Shown: positions 1 to 55,809 of the stretch, piece by piece
Numbering within the stretch: the first letter of the stretch is position 1
How the letters are laid out: each line of letters begins with the position of its first letter
Assembly (NCBI GenBank): GCA_021371795.1
Contig: JAJFVK010000013.1
Coordinates: forward strand, 62,001 to 126,000
Source of the DNA: Planctomycetaceae bacterium
GTDB lineage: Bacteria; Planctomycetota; Phycisphaerae; Sedimentisphaerales; UBA12454
Direction of reading: 5' to 3'
DNA: 64,000 bases
The notes under the pieces: model-generated
The model's database searches: none
Told to the model about the DNA's origin: nothing
The model's input: only the letters and a program-made list of their open reading frames with translations
Program-made: the position numbers and the translations under genes

Positions 1-393
1 AAGTTCGCTCTCGTCAGCATCCATCACCCTAAACGCAGGGTCGAGTCCGAGCCGATGAAAATGCTGCCCGATGATTCGCTTGCAGAACGAGTGAATCGTG
101 CTGATGTCTGCGCTGTCGAGCATTAAAAGCTGTTTGCGAAGATGAATATTTTTTGATTTTTGAGCCGCGTCTTTGAGATTCTGCGCGATTCGCTGCCTCA
201 TTTCGCCTGCCGCCGCGTCGGTAAATGTCAAAACAAGAATATCTGAAACATCCGGACACAACTCCTGCGCACCGAGTATGCGAACCGCCCGCTGCGAAAG
301 CACGGTCGTCTTGCCCGTACCTGCCGAAGCTGCGACGGTTATATCGCCGCTGCTCGACTCGATTGCCTGTTGTTGTCCTTTAGTCCAGTTCAT
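1..393 (-). CDS. addA: AddA helicase-nuclease subunit, N-terminal part (cut by window edge)
   Basis: This is the first 131 codons of a UvrD/Rep-type helicase. They include Walker A (ASAGTGKTT, near residue 23), motif Ia (LTFTDAAAGEMRQRI) and an ISTIHSFC motif, all typical of AddA. AddA is the 3'-5' helicase and nuclease subunit of the AddAB complex, which resects double-strand DNA ends for RecA-dependent repair. The ATG overlaps the TGA of addB (ATGA), so translation is probably coupled. The rest of the gene lies outside the left edge. Confidence 0.93.
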   Translation of the reverse strand, partial: MNWTKGQQQAIESSSGDITVAASAGTGKTTVLSQRAVRILGAQELCPDVSDILVLTFTDAAAGEMRQRIAQNLKDAAQKSKNIHLRKQLLMLDSADISTIHSFCKRIIGQHFHRLGLDPAFRVMDADESEL

Positions 394-3300
394 TTCGATG
401 TCTCAAAAAATTCTGTCTTGGAAATTTTCGTTATCTGCGAATAACCGTTAATCTGCCAGTCGAATCGGCAAAACGCTTTATATTTGCAATTCGCACAGGC
501 TGTGGTTTTGTCAAATTTATAAGGTTTAATTTCAATTTCGCCGGAAAGTATTCGACTGCCAAGCTGCTTGAGTTTATTTTCCGCAAAATTCAGCACCGCA
601 TCGAAATGTTCATCCCGCAAAAGCGAACTTGATTCGTAATAGCCGAACTGCCCGTCTTTTTGCGTAATTCCGAAACTATAATACGGACTGCGCCCGCCGG
701 CTGTTTGCGAATCTATACAATTAAAATACTCGCCGTTGAAAATACCTTTCGGCTTTCTCTTTATTTTACCTGCGTTTGTTTCAATATCATCGATGTCTGC
801 CGAATCGGCAGTCGATTGAATCTTAAAATAAAATGCGCCGAGTGGAATCAGATTTTTATATTTTTCAATAGTTTGATTTTTTATGGCAAGCAGATAAATC
901 GGAAGCTGCAAATCAAGCCCCGCTCCAAAAAGCGACCAGTTTATCGAGGTCTGCGAAGTTTTATAATCGACAACAAGGCAATAATTTTTGCCGTCTTCCG
1001 ACAATAAATCCACTCTGTCGATTTTGCCGTCGATATGAATTTTTTTGCCATCCGGCAAACTCAACTCAATCGCAGGCATCGCTGAATCGCGTCCAAATCC
1101 CGTTTCGGCGGCAATTTGATTAAATTTTCCAGCCGCGGCAATCTGCGAAAATTCCAACACCGCGTCTTTAATCATTTCCGATGCCGAAAGCACGATAAAA
1201 CTGTTGTGCTTTGTTCGCGCTTTGAAACTTTTCAGAAAATCATCTTCTAAAAGAAGTTTTTCTATTGCCGCGTCAGTTAATTTTGAAAGCACATCAGCCG
1301 GTGCGTTTGAAAAATTAAAATTTTGTTTTTTCAAATCGCCGAACAATATTTCGAGTACTTTATGATAAAAAAGGCCGAGACTAAAAGGCTCAAGCTCGAA
1401 AATACGCCGTTCCTTCAGTTTCATTATATGTTCACTAAAATATCTGAACGGACAGCTTGCGAACGATTTTAAACGTGTCGCGCTCGTTGCCAGAACATCC
1501 TGCATCGGCGGATTTTCCAATGCCGCGGTGTTTGTATAATCAATCGCGGTTTTGATATTTTCAACGTTTAGCCGTCGTCGGCACGACGACGCAAGTTCAT
1601 CCAGCAGCCACTTGCATTTTGCATCCGTATTGTCTGCCGGCGCAAAATTATCTTTTCCCAATCTGGCGGCAAGCAGTGCCGACAAATCAGAAGTGTTATA
1701 TAAATTATCAAACCCATCGCTGCCGTAATATTTTTCTTCGACAAGGTCGGTGAAAAGAGATTTCAACTGCTCGACAAGGAAACTCGGCTGAACATCCGTC
1801 CCTTTTTCATCAGCCAGCGGATAAGTAACATTCAGCAACTGCGAAGGCCTTGTAAAAGCGATATATGCCAGATACCTGCGTTCCATAAGCTGCGACGAAC
1901 CCCTGCACGCAAGTTCAAAACCTGCGTCGGCACTTACCTTGCGGTCGTTATCATTCAAAATATTATCATAATATATCGGTATCGGAAATTGCTTTTGCGT
2001 TCCGCCAATTAAAAATACCGCCTTCAAATCCGGATGCCTGCTTCGCTCTATCGAACCGACAAGCACCTGATCGAGCGCAGGCGGAATCAACGCAACCGTT
2101 ATCTGACTGAACATCGAGCAGATTAACGAAGCGTACTGACGCGTGGTGAGCGAACTGTCTTTGAAGATGAAAAGAAAATCGTCCATCAACTGCGTAAACT
2201 GTGAAAAAAATTGCTGATGAAGTTGCGCTTCGTCGAGCCTGCCTTCTTTAAATGCCGCATTCGTCCAGTCCGCAAGTTTCTGCCGAACGTTGAGACTATC
2301 GAGAAAAACTAAAACCGTCTGATAGAACCATTCGGCCGAGAGTCTTTCCTCCCGCTGCATTAACGCCCGTAACTGCAAAAGCTCTTCCGTAGCTCTGACC
2401 CTGATTTTATTGATAATGTCATTATCGAATTCGTCTTTTTTCTGCGCGAAGTGCCATTTCTCACTGCTCAACCAATCTTTGGCCTCGATACCGAACGCAA
2501 GACAATAATTTTCGAGCAAATCAACTTCCGCCCTGCTGACAGAAGCAAGGTCGCTCTTCAAATAATTTATCACATCGTTCGTTGAGAATCTGTCGGTCGC
2601 GATTTTCAAAGCACTGGTAATAAGTTCAACTGCCGGATACTGCTGCAAACATCTTCGCCTGTCAATAAAGAACGGAATATTAAAATCGCCGAAAATCGCC
2701 TGAATGAAATGATGATACTGGTCAATGTCGGACGCAATAACCGCTATATCTCGCCAGCGGTAATTTTTCTCGCGCACAAGCTCGCAAATCTGTCGTGCAA
2801 CATAATCGACTTCCAGCCGTGTTTTCGCACAGGCTGTAATCTTTATTTCACCATTGCAGGCCATCGGCCCAACTTCGTCAAAACTGAAAATATTTTTCTC
2901 AAGATGTCCAAGCGCTTTTGAATTCGCAAAACGATTCGCCTTGTCAAGTACAACAGGTTTTTCAATTTGCAGTTTTAATGATTTAACTACTTCAAGCAAA
3001 CCGCCGTAGGTTTTCGCAGTCGGCTCGAAAATTCCGGTATAATCGTTTTCCAATGCCGCGGGGTCAAGACACATCGCTATTTTCGCCGTGGAACAAACTT
3101 TCAATAATTCCGCCAGCATCATCGTTTCGGAAGTTGTAAAGCCCGCAAAGCCATCGACCCACAGCGAACAGTCTTTCAAAAATTCGCTTTTGGATACTGA
3201 TTCTTTGGCGAGATTAAGCTGATTATCGCTGTTTAGAAAATTGCCTTCGACAAAGGCAAGATACTGTTTATAAATCAGGTTTATATCTGTAAGTTTTCCC

Positions 3301-3758
3301 GCGGTTAATTCCGATTTGCCGCCAAGCTGTTTTATAAGCGTTTCAACGTCATCTGGACTCTTGCCATATTTTTGCAGCTCGGAAATCGTCTGCGCGATAG
3401 AAGAGGCCGTGCCCTGCCGTTGCGCCGCCGATGAAAAAATTGATAATTTACCTGCGTTTTCACAAAGCAATCGGTGAACTATCATATCCCTTGCCTGCGA
3501 AGTCAAAGGCCGGGCGGCGAGATTTTTACCGAAAATCATATAACAGAGTCGCTGAAATGAAAGCACGTGCAGTCGGCTGTAACCTTTTATTCGTGAATCG
3601 GAAAGAATCGCCCGTTCAGCCTGATATGTAGCCTGCTCCGGCACAAGAAAAACGAGATTCTGCTGGCTTTTACCATTCAACAGACTTTCTATAATCTGCT
3701 TTATGCAAAGCGTCGTCTTTCCTGTCCCGCTTCTTCCTAATATAAATTGAACAGCCAT
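390..3758 (-). CDS. addB: AddB helicase-nuclease subunit
   Basis: A 1122-residue protein that starts with Walker A GRSGTGKT at residues 8-15. It ends in a PD-(D/E)XK nuclease module (IDGKIDRVD followed by VVDYKT). Four cysteines fit the AddB iron-sulfur staple: one in ASCPFRYF near residue 769 and three in CANCKYKAFC about 25 residues from the end. It pairs with AddA in the DNA end-resection complex, and its stop overlaps the addA start. No clear Shine-Dalgarno precedes the ATG. A dispersed repeat copy (3764-3789) begins six bases upstream of the start, and part of the addB head is duplicated at 4029-4100. Confidence 0.93.
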   Translation of the reverse strand: MAVQFILGRSGTGKTTLCIKQIIESLLNGKSQQNLVFLVPEQATYQAERAILSDSRIKGYSRLHVLSFQRLCYMIFGKNLAARPLTSQARDMIVHRLLCENAGKLSIFSSAAQRQGTASSIAQTISELQKYGKSPDDVETLIKQLGGKSELTAGKLTDINLIYKQYLAFVEGNFLNSDNQLNLAKESVSKSEFLKDCSLWVDGFAGFTTSETMMLAELLKVCSTAKIAMCLDPAALENDYTGIFEPTAKTYGGLLEVVKSLKLQIEKPVVLDKANRFANSKALGHLEKNIFSFDEVGPMACNGEIKITACAKTRLEVDYVARQICELVREKNYRWRDIAVIASDIDQYHHFIQAIFGDFNIPFFIDRRRCLQQYPAVELITSALKIATDRFSTNDVINYLKSDLASVSRAEVDLLENYCLAFGIEAKDWLSSEKWHFAQKKDEFDNDIINKIRVRATEELLQLRALMQREERLSAEWFYQTVLVFLDSLNVRQKLADWTNAAFKEGRLDEAQLHQQFFSQFTQLMDDFLFIFKDSSLTTRQYASLICSMFSQITVALIPPALDQVLVGSIERSRHPDLKAVFLIGGTQKQFPIPIYYDNILNDNDRKVSADAGFELACRGSSQLMERRYLAYIAFTRPSQLLNVTYPLADEKGTDVQPSFLVEQLKSLFTDLVEEKYYGSDGFDNLYNTSDLSALLAARLGKDNFAPADNTDAKCKWLLDELASSCRRRLNVENIKTAIDYTNTAALENPPMQDVLATSATRLKSFASCPFRYFSEHIMKLKERRIFELEPFSLGLFYHKVLEILFGDLKKQNFNFSNAPADVLSKLTDAAIEKLLLEDDFLKSFKARTKHNSFIVLSASEMIKDAVLEFSQIAAAGKFNQIAAETGFGRDSAMPAIELSLPDGKKIHIDGKIDRVDLLSEDGKNYCLVVDYKTSQTSINWSLFGAGLDLQLPIYLLAIKNQTIEKYKNLIPLGAFYFKIQSTADSADIDDIETNAGKIKRKPKGIFNGEYFNCIDSQTAGGRSPYYSFGITQKDGQFGYYESSSLLRDEHFDAVLNFAENKLKQLGSRILSGEIEIKPYKFDKTTACANCKYKAFCRFDWQINGYSQITKISKTEFFETSK

Positions 3759-3763
3759 TAATT

Positions 3764-3789
3764 AACCACGAATTAACACGAATAAACAC
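3764..3789 (+). repeat. Dispersed repeat family A, copy 1
   Basis: A 26-base element with consensus AACCACGAATTAACACGAAT followed by NNACAC. Other copies are at 4106-4131, 4485-4510 (inverted), 27805-27830 (inverted) and 55784-55809. This copy sits immediately upstream of the addB start codon, where the promoter and ribosome-binding region would be expected. Confidence 0.85.
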
Positions 3790-3853
3790 AATTTTTTAAC
3801 CGCGGATTACGCGGATTTAACTGAAAAAATTAAATATAAAAACTATATTTCAA

Positions 3854-4054: not shown

Positions 4055-4100
4055 CCACTTTTTCCGTCCCGCTTCTTCCTAATATAAATTCAACTGACAT
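4029..4100 (-). pseudogene. Broken copy of the addB 5' end
   Basis: Bases 4067-4139 repeat 3725-3797 (addB codons 1-11 plus upstream DNA) with few changes. The copy reads MSVEFILGRSGT where addB reads MAVQFILGRSGTGKT. It then leaves the addB frame inside Walker A and stops after 23 codons. It is a partial duplication of the gene start and its upstream region, not a functional gene. Confidence 0.75.
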
Positions 4101-4105
4101 TTATT

Positions 4106-4131
4106 AACCACGAATTAACACGAATTTACAC
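4106..4131 (+). repeat. Dispersed repeat family A, copy 2 (left arm around the DUF1871-like gene)
   Basis: It matches the inverted copy at 4485-4510 at 25 of 26 positions, so the two form a near-perfect inverted repeat with the small gene 4169-4459 between them. It is also part of the duplicated addB upstream region. Confidence 0.85.
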
Positions 4132-4168
4132 TAATTTTTAAACACTGATTACACAGATTTCACTTATT

Positions 4169-4459
4169 TTATGAACGCTCATCTATTATTTTTTTATATG
4201 TCTTCAATATCACCACTACCTTATCACACATTTTGATATTCGCTGTCAACCCCATCTTATCATTTATAATATCGTGAAGATATTTTGAAATTGTCTCTGA
4301 TTCTTTATCAGCTTTTATCATCCCAAATATTTTTGGCACATACGATTCATATTCATTCCTCGCATAAGGCTCTCCCGCAACACCAATTGGATCCCAAAGA
4401 TAGTGTATGACTTCGTCCACTCGCCTATATAATTCTTTGTCCTTTCGTTCTATTTTCAT
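4169..4459 (-). CDS. Small DUF1871-like protein
   Basis: A 96-residue soluble protein with a central WDPIG.....NEYESY motif followed by a helical half. This resembles the WDP(I/L)G...DEY signature of DUF1871-type small proteins, whose function is not established. There is no signal peptide or membrane segment. The gene lies alone between two arms of a 26-bp inverted repeat (4106-4131 and 4485-4510), which suggests that it travels as a cassette. The family assignment is from motif memory and is moderate. Expression is plausible but no strong Shine-Dalgarno is visible. Confidence 0.6.
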   Translation of the reverse strand: MKIERKDKELYRRVDEVIHYLWDPIGVAGEPYARNEYESYVPKIFGMIKADKESETISKYLHDIINDKMGLTANIKMCDKVVVILKTYKKIIDERS

Positions 4460-4484
4460 TTTTAATCAGCAATTAAATTATTTC

Positions 4485-4510
4485 GTGTCAATTCGTGTTA
4501 ATTCGTGGTT
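4485..4510 (-). repeat. Dispersed repeat family A, copy 3 (right arm around the DUF1871-like gene)
   Basis: This is an inverted copy of the family A element. It is followed at 4535-4550 by a CTCTGTGTCCTCTGTG fragment of a second family (family B, CACAGAG-type), which recurs around the GxxExxY gene near 41 kb. Confidence 0.85.
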
Positions 4511-4594
4511 ATTTTTATTTTCAACATTTATTTTCTCTGTGTCCTCTGTGCTCTTGAGCCGCAGCGAAACCCCTTTGGGGTCTGTGGCTAACTT

Positions 4595-5347
4595 TTATTT
4601 TTTTGGTACCGGCAAACCCAATTCCGCCATAACGGATTTCATATCTTCCCACACCTTTCGGCGGTTATCGTCGGAATAATTTCGCAGCAGATATGCGGGA
4701 TGGAACGTCGGCATAAGTTTTATCGGCGGCGAAGATTCATCGAAATAAAAATCCTGAAACTGGCCGCGAAGCTGACCTATCGGTTTGTTCGTATTAAGAA
4801 GCGTTCTTGTCGATGGCGCACCAAGCGAAACAATTACCTTCGGCCTAATTAAGCCAAGTTGTCTTTTCAAAAACGGCAGACAACTGATAATTTCCTCCGG
4901 CCGCGGTTCGCGATTCTCCGGCGGTCTGCACTTTACGATATTACAGATATAAACATCGCTTCGCTTTAAGCCCATCGCGTTTGTGATAATCTTCTCCAAA
5001 AGCTGACCCGACCTGCCGACAAACGGCCTGCCCTGCGCATCTTCATCCGCTCCGGGTCCTTCGCCAACAAAAACCAACTGGGCATTGGGATTTCCTTCGC
5101 CGGGAACAGGATTCAACCGTGTCGAGCCAAGCACGCACTTTTGGCACGCCGCGATTTCTTTGGCCAACTGCGCAAGCTCGCCGGCAACATCCGATTTTGG
5201 AGATTTGACCGGTTGAGATTCCGCTTCTTTCGTTTTAGCTGATGCAGCACGTTTACTGGATTTGGATTTCATAGAAAAGCCCGTAAAATAATCCTCCAGC
5301 TTGACATGCTGGTCAAAAACTTTGCGTAGATTCGTTTTTTCCTTCAT
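4595..5347 (-). CDS. udg: Family 4 uracil-DNA glycosylase (4Fe-4S)
   Basis: A 250-residue protein with the family-4 UDG core. The uracil-binding motif GEGPGADEDAQGRPFVGRSG lies at 95-114 and the C-terminal FHPAYLLRN loop near 215. Cysteines 68, 71, 140 and 156 have the C-x2-C...C-x15-C spacing of the iron-sulfur ligands. It removes uracil from DNA at the start of base-excision repair. The first 55 or so residues are a charged, low-complexity extension (Lys/Ser/Ala-rich) absent from the shortest family members. The neighbouring addAB genes are also DNA repair. Confidence 0.9.
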   Translation of the reverse strand: MKEKTNLRKVFDQHVKLEDYFTGFSMKSKSSKRAASAKTKEAESQPVKSPKSDVAGELAQLAKEIAACQKCVLGSTRLNPVPGEGNPNAQLVFVGEGPGADEDAQGRPFVGRSGQLLEKIITNAMGLKRSDVYICNIVKCRPPENREPRPEEIISCLPFLKRQLGLIRPKVIVSLGAPSTRTLLNTNKPIGQLRGQFQDFYFDESSPPIKLMPTFHPAYLLRNYSDDNRRKVWEDMKSVMAELGLPVPKK

Positions 5348-27804: not shown

Positions 27805-27830
27805 GTGTCTATTCGTGTTCATTCGTGGTT
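27805..27830 (-). repeat. Dispersed repeat family A, copy 4
   Basis: An inverted 26-base copy (AACCACGAATGAACACGAAT on the minus strand) fills the gap between coaX and the MnmE-like gene and touches the coaX stop codon. Confidence 0.85.
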
Positions 27831-41022: not shown

Positions 41023-41054
41023 TTAAAGAACCAAGAGAATAATTTTTTATTTTT

Positions 41055-41081
41055 CACCACAGAGACGCAGAGGACACAGAG
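41055..41081 (+). repeat. Dispersed repeat family B, left arm around the GxxExxY gene
   Basis: CACCACAGAGACGCAGAGGA and the following CACAGAG match the inverted copy at 41472-41498 at 23 of 27 positions. The arm ends one base before the GxxExxY stop codon. Confidence 0.85.
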
Positions 41082-41082
41082 A

Positions 41083-41457
41083 TTATAAAATAAATCTTTT
41101 GATGCCTTCTTTTAAAAGCGGAACATTAAAATTTATTAAAAGGCCTGTGTGAATATCGGCCAACTTCATATATGTCAAAATTTGTGCTTCGTGTATTGGC
41201 ACAATCGTCTCAACAGATTTTAACTCGACAATCAACTTATCTTCGATTAACAAATCTATTCGATAATCGCAATCAAGAGGTATATTTTTATATTTTACAG
41301 GAAGCGCCTTTTGAGTTGTATGATGTATATTGTTAGCCAACAATTCAAATGAAAGGCACCTTTCATACGCAGATTCCAACAAACCCGGCCCAAGATTTCG
41401 ATGAACTTCTATCGCACAACCTATCACTTTGCCTGATAATTCATCATAATCTTTCAT
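41083..41457 (-). CDS. GxxExxY protein
   Basis: A 124-residue protein with the naming motif GPGLLESAYE at about 23-32. Further family features are LPVKYKNIPLDCDYRIDLLIEDKLIVELK and HEAQILTYMKL. The conserved D..L....VELK pattern resembles a PD-(D/E)XK nuclease core, but the function of the family is not established. The gene is isolated and enclosed by an imperfect 27-bp inverted repeat, which suggests a mobile cassette. Confidence 0.92.
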   Translation of the reverse strand: MKDYDELSGKVIGCAIEVHRNLGPGLLESAYERCLSFELLANNIHHTTQKALPVKYKNIPLDCDYRIDLLIEDKLIVELKSVETIVPIHEAQILTYMKLADIHTGLLINFNVPLLKEGIKRFIL

Positions 41458-41471
41458 TTTATATATATTAC

Positions 41472-41498
41472 CTCTGTGAACTCTGTGCCTCTGTGGTG
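41472..41498 (-). repeat. Dispersed repeat family B, right arm around the GxxExxY gene
   Basis: CTCTGTGAACTCTGTGCCTC and the following TGTGGTG form the inverted partner of 41055-41081. It lies between the GxxExxY start and the argF stop. Confidence 0.85.
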
Positions 41499-41521
41499 AG
41501 AGTAGTTCTCTACTATCTTTT

Positions 41522-55783: not shown

Positions 55784-55809
55784 AACCACGAATTGACACG
55801 AATAAACAC
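55784..55809 (+). repeat. Dispersed repeat family A, copy 5
   Basis: AACCACGAATTGACACGAAT continuing into AAACAC lies inside the 54-base gap between the DUF1549/1553 and DUF1501 genes, 20 bases before the latter's ATG. Confidence 0.85.

Follow-up and report, generated by a model that had tools for sequence, protein, structure and literature searches.

In the 64,000-nucleotide stretch of DNA analyzed here (the window), the DUF1871-like locus is a genuine insertion in the form of a cassette with a single gene. It is a member of a widespread family of mini-elements in which the cargo identified most often is a GxxExxY PD-(D/E)XK nuclease. We predict that the cassette is a GxxExxY-type mini-element in passenger form, moved by a nuclease that matches the short words repeated at its ends, and we assign this explanation a probability of about one half. 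It draws on orthologous junctions (udg-addB and argF) that are empty or otherwise filled in relatives, on pairs of repeats that face only inward and enclose varied cargo, and on the flanks of GxxExxY genes, both in the order and in a set that spans phyla. It also draws on word classes that track the nuclease tree, two element copies bounded at an array, invariant catalytic-type residues, a bias toward operon direction, and words that match better than spacers between the two arms of an element.

The cassette at the udg-addB junction

The cassette lies between two genes on the minus strand, both named from sequence, which encode an AddB/RexB-like helicase-nuclease of 1122 aa (390..3758) and a member of the uracil-DNA glycosylase family (4595..5347). 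The initial annotation described inverted 26-mers that agree at 25 of 26 positions around one 96-codon gene, and this description is correct. The 26-mers at 4106-4131 (plus strand, AACCACGAATTAACACGAATTTACAC) and 4485-4510 (minus strand, AACCACGAATTAACACGAATTGACAC) have opposite orientations and differ at one position, and the enclosed ORF (4169-4459, minus strand) is co-directional with the flanking operon genes. The inverted arms reach 30 nt at 93% identity; the downstream arm (4105-4134, plus) is an inward-reading array of CACGAAT words that contains the first 26-mer, and the upstream arm (4482-4511, minus) is its inverted partner. A second array with another word, CACTGATTACACAGATT, is nested inside the arm at 4143-4159 (plus), and a lone array of CACAGAG words lies external to the cassette at 4533-4550 (minus). 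The three additional sites that had been noticed are also present, with 1-2 mismatches, at 3764-3789 (plus), 27805-27830 (minus) and 55784-55809 (plus); the latter two are lone CACGAAT arrays at operon junctions. Dinucleotide shuffles of the window gave no match to the 26-mer.

The first of these sites is part of a direct duplication (85% identity), with a reference copy at 3718-3822 that holds the addB start codons and two arrays (CACGAAT at 3764-3789 and CGCGGATT at 3801-3817). The second, decayed copy (4060-4164) overlaps the arm at 4105-4134. The copies are 342 bp apart, and each combines ~40 bp from the start of the addB-like gene with two arrays; the copy at 4060-4164 is a decayed addB start. 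The 237 bp separating the copies contain a hairpin (TTACCATACAA...TTGTATGGTAA) and a stretch that resembles a dispersed repeat (GTCATTCCTGCGAAAGC).

The flanking udg and addB-like genes are also neighbors in relatives, and the contents of the gap between them differ. The gap is 840 bp in this genome and 58-59 bp, free of repeats, in G003 and G004 of the same genus. Arrays without a gene occupy it in G012, G010 and G007 of the same family, and three different small genes, all in operon direction, are found there in G001, G002 and G006 of the same genus. The junction as a whole has layered arrays of several words. The suggestion that the locus is a non-autonomous mobile cassette is largely right, in that the insertion is absent from same-genus relatives. 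We also looked for the target duplication that is typical of transposons, a check proposed with the initial annotation, and found none. The expectation that different small genes would lie inside was borne out, both at this junction in relatives and within inward pairs of arrays in this genome.

A second junction behaves in a similar way. The argF and NTPase-like genes abut directly in G003, G004 and G010, have a GxxExxY cassette between them in this genome and in G009, and are separated by arrays only in G012, G005 and G001. Cassette genes match the direction of their co-directional neighbors in 34 of 40 and 21 of 24 cases; this retention bias toward operon direction may be due to selection or to the mechanism. 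GxxExxY cassettes were also observed between gatA-like and gatB-like genes at two loci (L027 and L224) from two families of the order, a placement that reflects either an old insertion common to both or a hot spot.

Pfam gave no hit at E<=1 for the 96-aa protein of the cassette itself. An AF2 model made from six sequences (pLDDT 90.6) is all-helical and has 1u84 as its best PDB match (TM 0.69/0.80, Foldseek E 0.24). The same structure, 1u84, is the hit of a profile built from six homologues (E 0.035), and one of the six matches DUF1871 (PF08958; E 0.059). These model and profile matches support the DUF1871-like label without proving membership. Homologues are present in seven of 392 genomes of the phylum, including this one (E<=1e-6), plus one in the order. 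No clear arrays were seen near them, one locus being viewed by eye and the others by an unscored boundary check. We therefore rejected the DUF1871-like gene as the mobile principle; it is not a habitual cargo and is best seen as a passenger.

The arrays and the genes that they enclose

Aligned copies of the 26-mer give the consensus AACCACGAAT NN ACACGAAT NN ACACTAAT. The repeat is an array of three 7-bp words (CACGAAT or CACTAAT) with a 10-bp period and free NN spacers; the information content is near its maximum at the words, dips at the spacers and fades beyond the array. A pattern search of this genome with an 18-base core and up to two mismatches gave 51 sites, which were examined as stretches, and the reversed control pattern gave none in the same genome. 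Relatives have from 0 to 57 sites each. The sites are mostly intergenic, chiefly between co-directional genes and in either orientation, and a start or stop codon is often no more than 20 bp away.

Single arrays outnumber pairs. Among the sites found by pattern search in this genome, pairs less than 1.5 kb apart comprise six that face inward, none that face outward and two in the same direction. The prospect that the 26-mers might occur at random orientation around all kinds of genes thus describes the single arrays, but not the pairs. Of the six inward CACGAAT pairs, one encloses the DUF1871-like gene, one a GxxExxY gene on C17 and one the gene for a 359-aa subtilase on C19 (PF00082, E 5.5e-15); the other three measure 61-134 bp and are empty of genes. 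The subtilase gene (L030 1501-2613; G000:C19:26222-27334) has inward arrays abutting both of its ends and a pheS-like gene adjoining. At another locus (L003, G000:C4, near position 1500), a CACGAAT array is within an inward C[AG]C[AGT]GATT pair, an apparent nesting of repeats.

The GxxExxY gene on C17 (PF13366; CACGAAT arrays around it at C17:52641-53091) is relevant to the earlier assumption that the mover enzyme is absent. That assumption is not supported, as this gene is a candidate for the cognate enzyme. A sister GxxExxY cassette with CACAGAG ends is even located within the window at 41054-41499. It consists of a terminal array of CACAGAG words (41054-41081, plus), the gene itself (41083-41457, minus; TIGR04256 E 2e-44 and PF13366 PD-(D/E)XK E 4.7e-43) and the inverted partner array (41471-41499, minus).

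GxxExxY cassettes across phyla and their words

We scored inverted flanks as the best local match of the upstream flank with the reverse complement of the downstream flank, with a cut-off of 13 that was picked by eye; neighbor-gene controls, few in number, reached 13 in 0-2 cases per set of 12-26. In this genome and pieces of G003, 11 of 850 ORFs (eight distinct) scored at least 13. The top five were the DUF1871-like gene (26.0), an IVP gene (22.5), a 241-aa zinc-ribbon/membrane-like ORF (21.0) and two GxxExxY genes (20.5 and 18.5). Across the order, 53 of 85 GxxExxY genes reached the cut-off, compared to two of 26 neighbor genes (p=5e-6). The same was true of 35 of 62 GxxExxY genes and 0 of 22 controls (Fisher p=5e-7) in a set from Planctomycetota, Proteobacteria, Bacteroidota, Cyanobacteria, Chloroflexota, Ignavibacteria and others, which represents mainly one subfamily due to the narrower-alignment profile search. 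IVP genes (PF05635) display a similar pattern with other words of ~7-8 bp, in that 19 of 27 have inverted arrays, versus 0 of 12 controls.

One four-helix IVP gene (L189, G000:C13:285633-285989) lies between inverted arrays of the ATTTAAA type; the gene gap that holds it measures 453 bp here and 55 bp in G003. Neighboring 165- and 241-aa genes (G000:C13:81979-85098) have AT-rich inverted flanks (TTTGAATTTTAATTTTTGAT; TTATCAAATCTTCAATCT) and gaps that are much shorter in G003, and they are possible cassettes with other words. At L261, L327, L194 and L163 the GxxExxY gene has a ~110-140-bp unit on either side, the two copies being near-identical and in direct orientation. The unit is itself an inward array pair, and the arrangement resembles two flanking MITE copies.

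The GxxExxY residues D68, E78-x-K80 and Q92 are invariant and of catalytic type. Placed on a tree of 78 GxxExxY proteins, a tree with few columns and many weak forks, the words sorted into five classes require seven changes, versus 31.6 when shuffled, and none of 200 shuffles was as low. Irrespective of phylum, proteins of the RAG class (CACGAAG, CACAGAG) fall on one side of a branch. Three of six proteins of the AAT class cluster together, and the nuclease on C17 was put with this class as its representative because its arrays are CACGAAT. Plain co-inheritance of word and protein would yield the same clustering. However, the words persist even where GxxExxY proteins have diverged to ~35-65% identity, while the spacer letters drift.

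Two AAT-type GxxExxY copies in G004, 92% identical over 424 bp, have different gene surroundings, and their match starts exactly at TTAACCACGAAT, the outer edge of the array. The left boundary is common to both copies, but the 3' boundaries are ragged and the right arms are not clean, which we count against our explanation. We also count against it that 2-5-bp target-site repeats at 88 GxxExxY elements were not above shuffled expectation, and that genomes with a matching nuclease had no significant surplus of CACGAAT arrays (p=0.13). GxxExxY genes on plasmids were found in eight records, all predicted to be non-mobilizable.

How the cassettes might move, and what they resemble

If the passenger explanation is correct, a GxxExxY protein whose word class matches would recognize the words at both ends and would move any gene between the arrays, the DUF1871-like gene being a passenger. 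Insertions would be kept mainly at within-operon junctions and in operon direction, where they would be harmless, and gene-less pairs and single arrays would be derivatives of cassettes. The cassette resembles GxxExxY-type mini-elements in its inward inverted arrays, in which ~7-bp words recur every 8-11 bp, and its end word is the same as that around the C17 member and around members across the order. It differs in that it encodes a DUF1871-like protein and no nuclease, and so it is a passenger form at best.

The closest described element is the 23S rRNA intervening sequence (IVS) with its S23/IVP four-helix-bundle ORF. The Coxiella IVS has 428 nt, 28-bp terminal inverted repeats and one ORF and is a suspected remnant of transposition (PMC4990558). 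This likeness raises an alternative that we consider unlikely, namely that the cassette is an RNA-level element of this type, in which the arms pair in the transcript, RNase III cuts the stem, spread occurs via RNA or another route, and the words matter only as stem. A ~400-bp unit with one small ORF in ~28-bp terminal inverted repeats fits this alternative, as do the inverted arrays around the PF05635 genes of the order themselves, the operon direction of the cassette genes and the lack of target duplication. However, the words of the two arms within an element match at 94% and the spacer letters at 58%, and comparison of different elements from one class gives 80% and 46%, whereas a stem would constrain both. 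This difference favors a protein that reads fixed-spaced words over a plain RNA stem. The spacer length is equal in the two arms in 85 of 103 elements, an agreement that local alignment partly favors, and in 35% of comparisons between elements of one class. In addition, the loci that we examined closely are all outside of rRNA genes, judging by their flanking ORFs. The cassette itself lies between the udg and addB-like genes rather than in a 23S rRNA gene, its ORF has no PF05635 match (no Pfam hit at E<=1), the end word depends on lineage, and the cargo is DUF1871-like or GxxExxY.

We consider it equally improbable that the arrays are independent dispersed repeats at gene junctions and that genes became enclosed via homologous recombination between copies, with no dedicated enzyme. 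Most arrays are indeed single, in both orientations and beside unrelated genes; the udg-addB junction combines layered arrays of several words with a 105-bp duplication, and array number is uncorrelated with nuclease presence. However, such an origin is hard to reconcile with six inward and no outward pairs, with spacer lengths common to both arms, with a word that is specific to the lineage of the enclosed nuclease across phyla, and with inverted flanks that concentrate on two gene families. The remaining alternative, that the arrays are regulator or nucleoid-protein sites beside an ordinary accessory gene, accounts for the helical 10-bp phasing, conserved words and free spacers, but it is very improbable given that the arrays are mostly within operons rather than at divergent promoters, differ in presence among close relatives and have a word of their own for each cassette type.

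Returning to the passenger explanation, the cassette shares features with several other known systems. As in MITEs and non-autonomous insertion sequences, it has terminal inverted repeats (25 of 26; 30 nt at 93%), a passenger gene and gene-less copies of 61-134 bp. Unlike MITEs and DDE-type insertion sequences, the ends are internally direct-repeat arrays with no excess of target-site duplications, and no known transposase was identified within the elements. The ~50 intergenic copies of a ~30-bp array are reminiscent of REP/BIME and other short dispersed repeats, but single arrays are direct repeats rather than palindromes, and the pairs bracket genes and have lineage-specific words. Integron gene cassettes have a single attC and an integrase, unlike the two inverted arrays that serve as ends here. 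Rpn (PF04754) is a PD-(D/E)XK-type nuclease. Rpn recombination-promoting nucleases have been tied to RecA-independent gene transfer in E. coli K-12, but they are a family different from GxxExxY and the excerpted text of that report describes no terminal arrays for them (PMC5350276). In the open-licence literature that we searched, we found no account of GxxExxY as mobile, and searches of it by repeat strings or family names found no description of these array-ended elements. They are possibly a categorically new class of element.

More generally, and somewhat more tentatively than for the cassette itself, we suggest that there are self-mobile elements of less than 500 bp across phyla in which a GxxExxY protein (or, in a sister class, IVP) recognizes lineage-specific word arrays at both ends. 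They would move without a recognized transposase or target duplication, would target operon junctions and could carry captured genes. If this is true, it would provide a function and a mechanism for two abundant and poorly understood families, GxxExxY and 23S-IVP, and the link between word and nuclease lineage renders recognition directly testable. It would also account for many dispersed repeats in environmental genomes that have been puzzling (CACAGAG, CACGAAG, CACGAAT and so on) and would reveal one way in which single small genes can join an operon and leave it intact.
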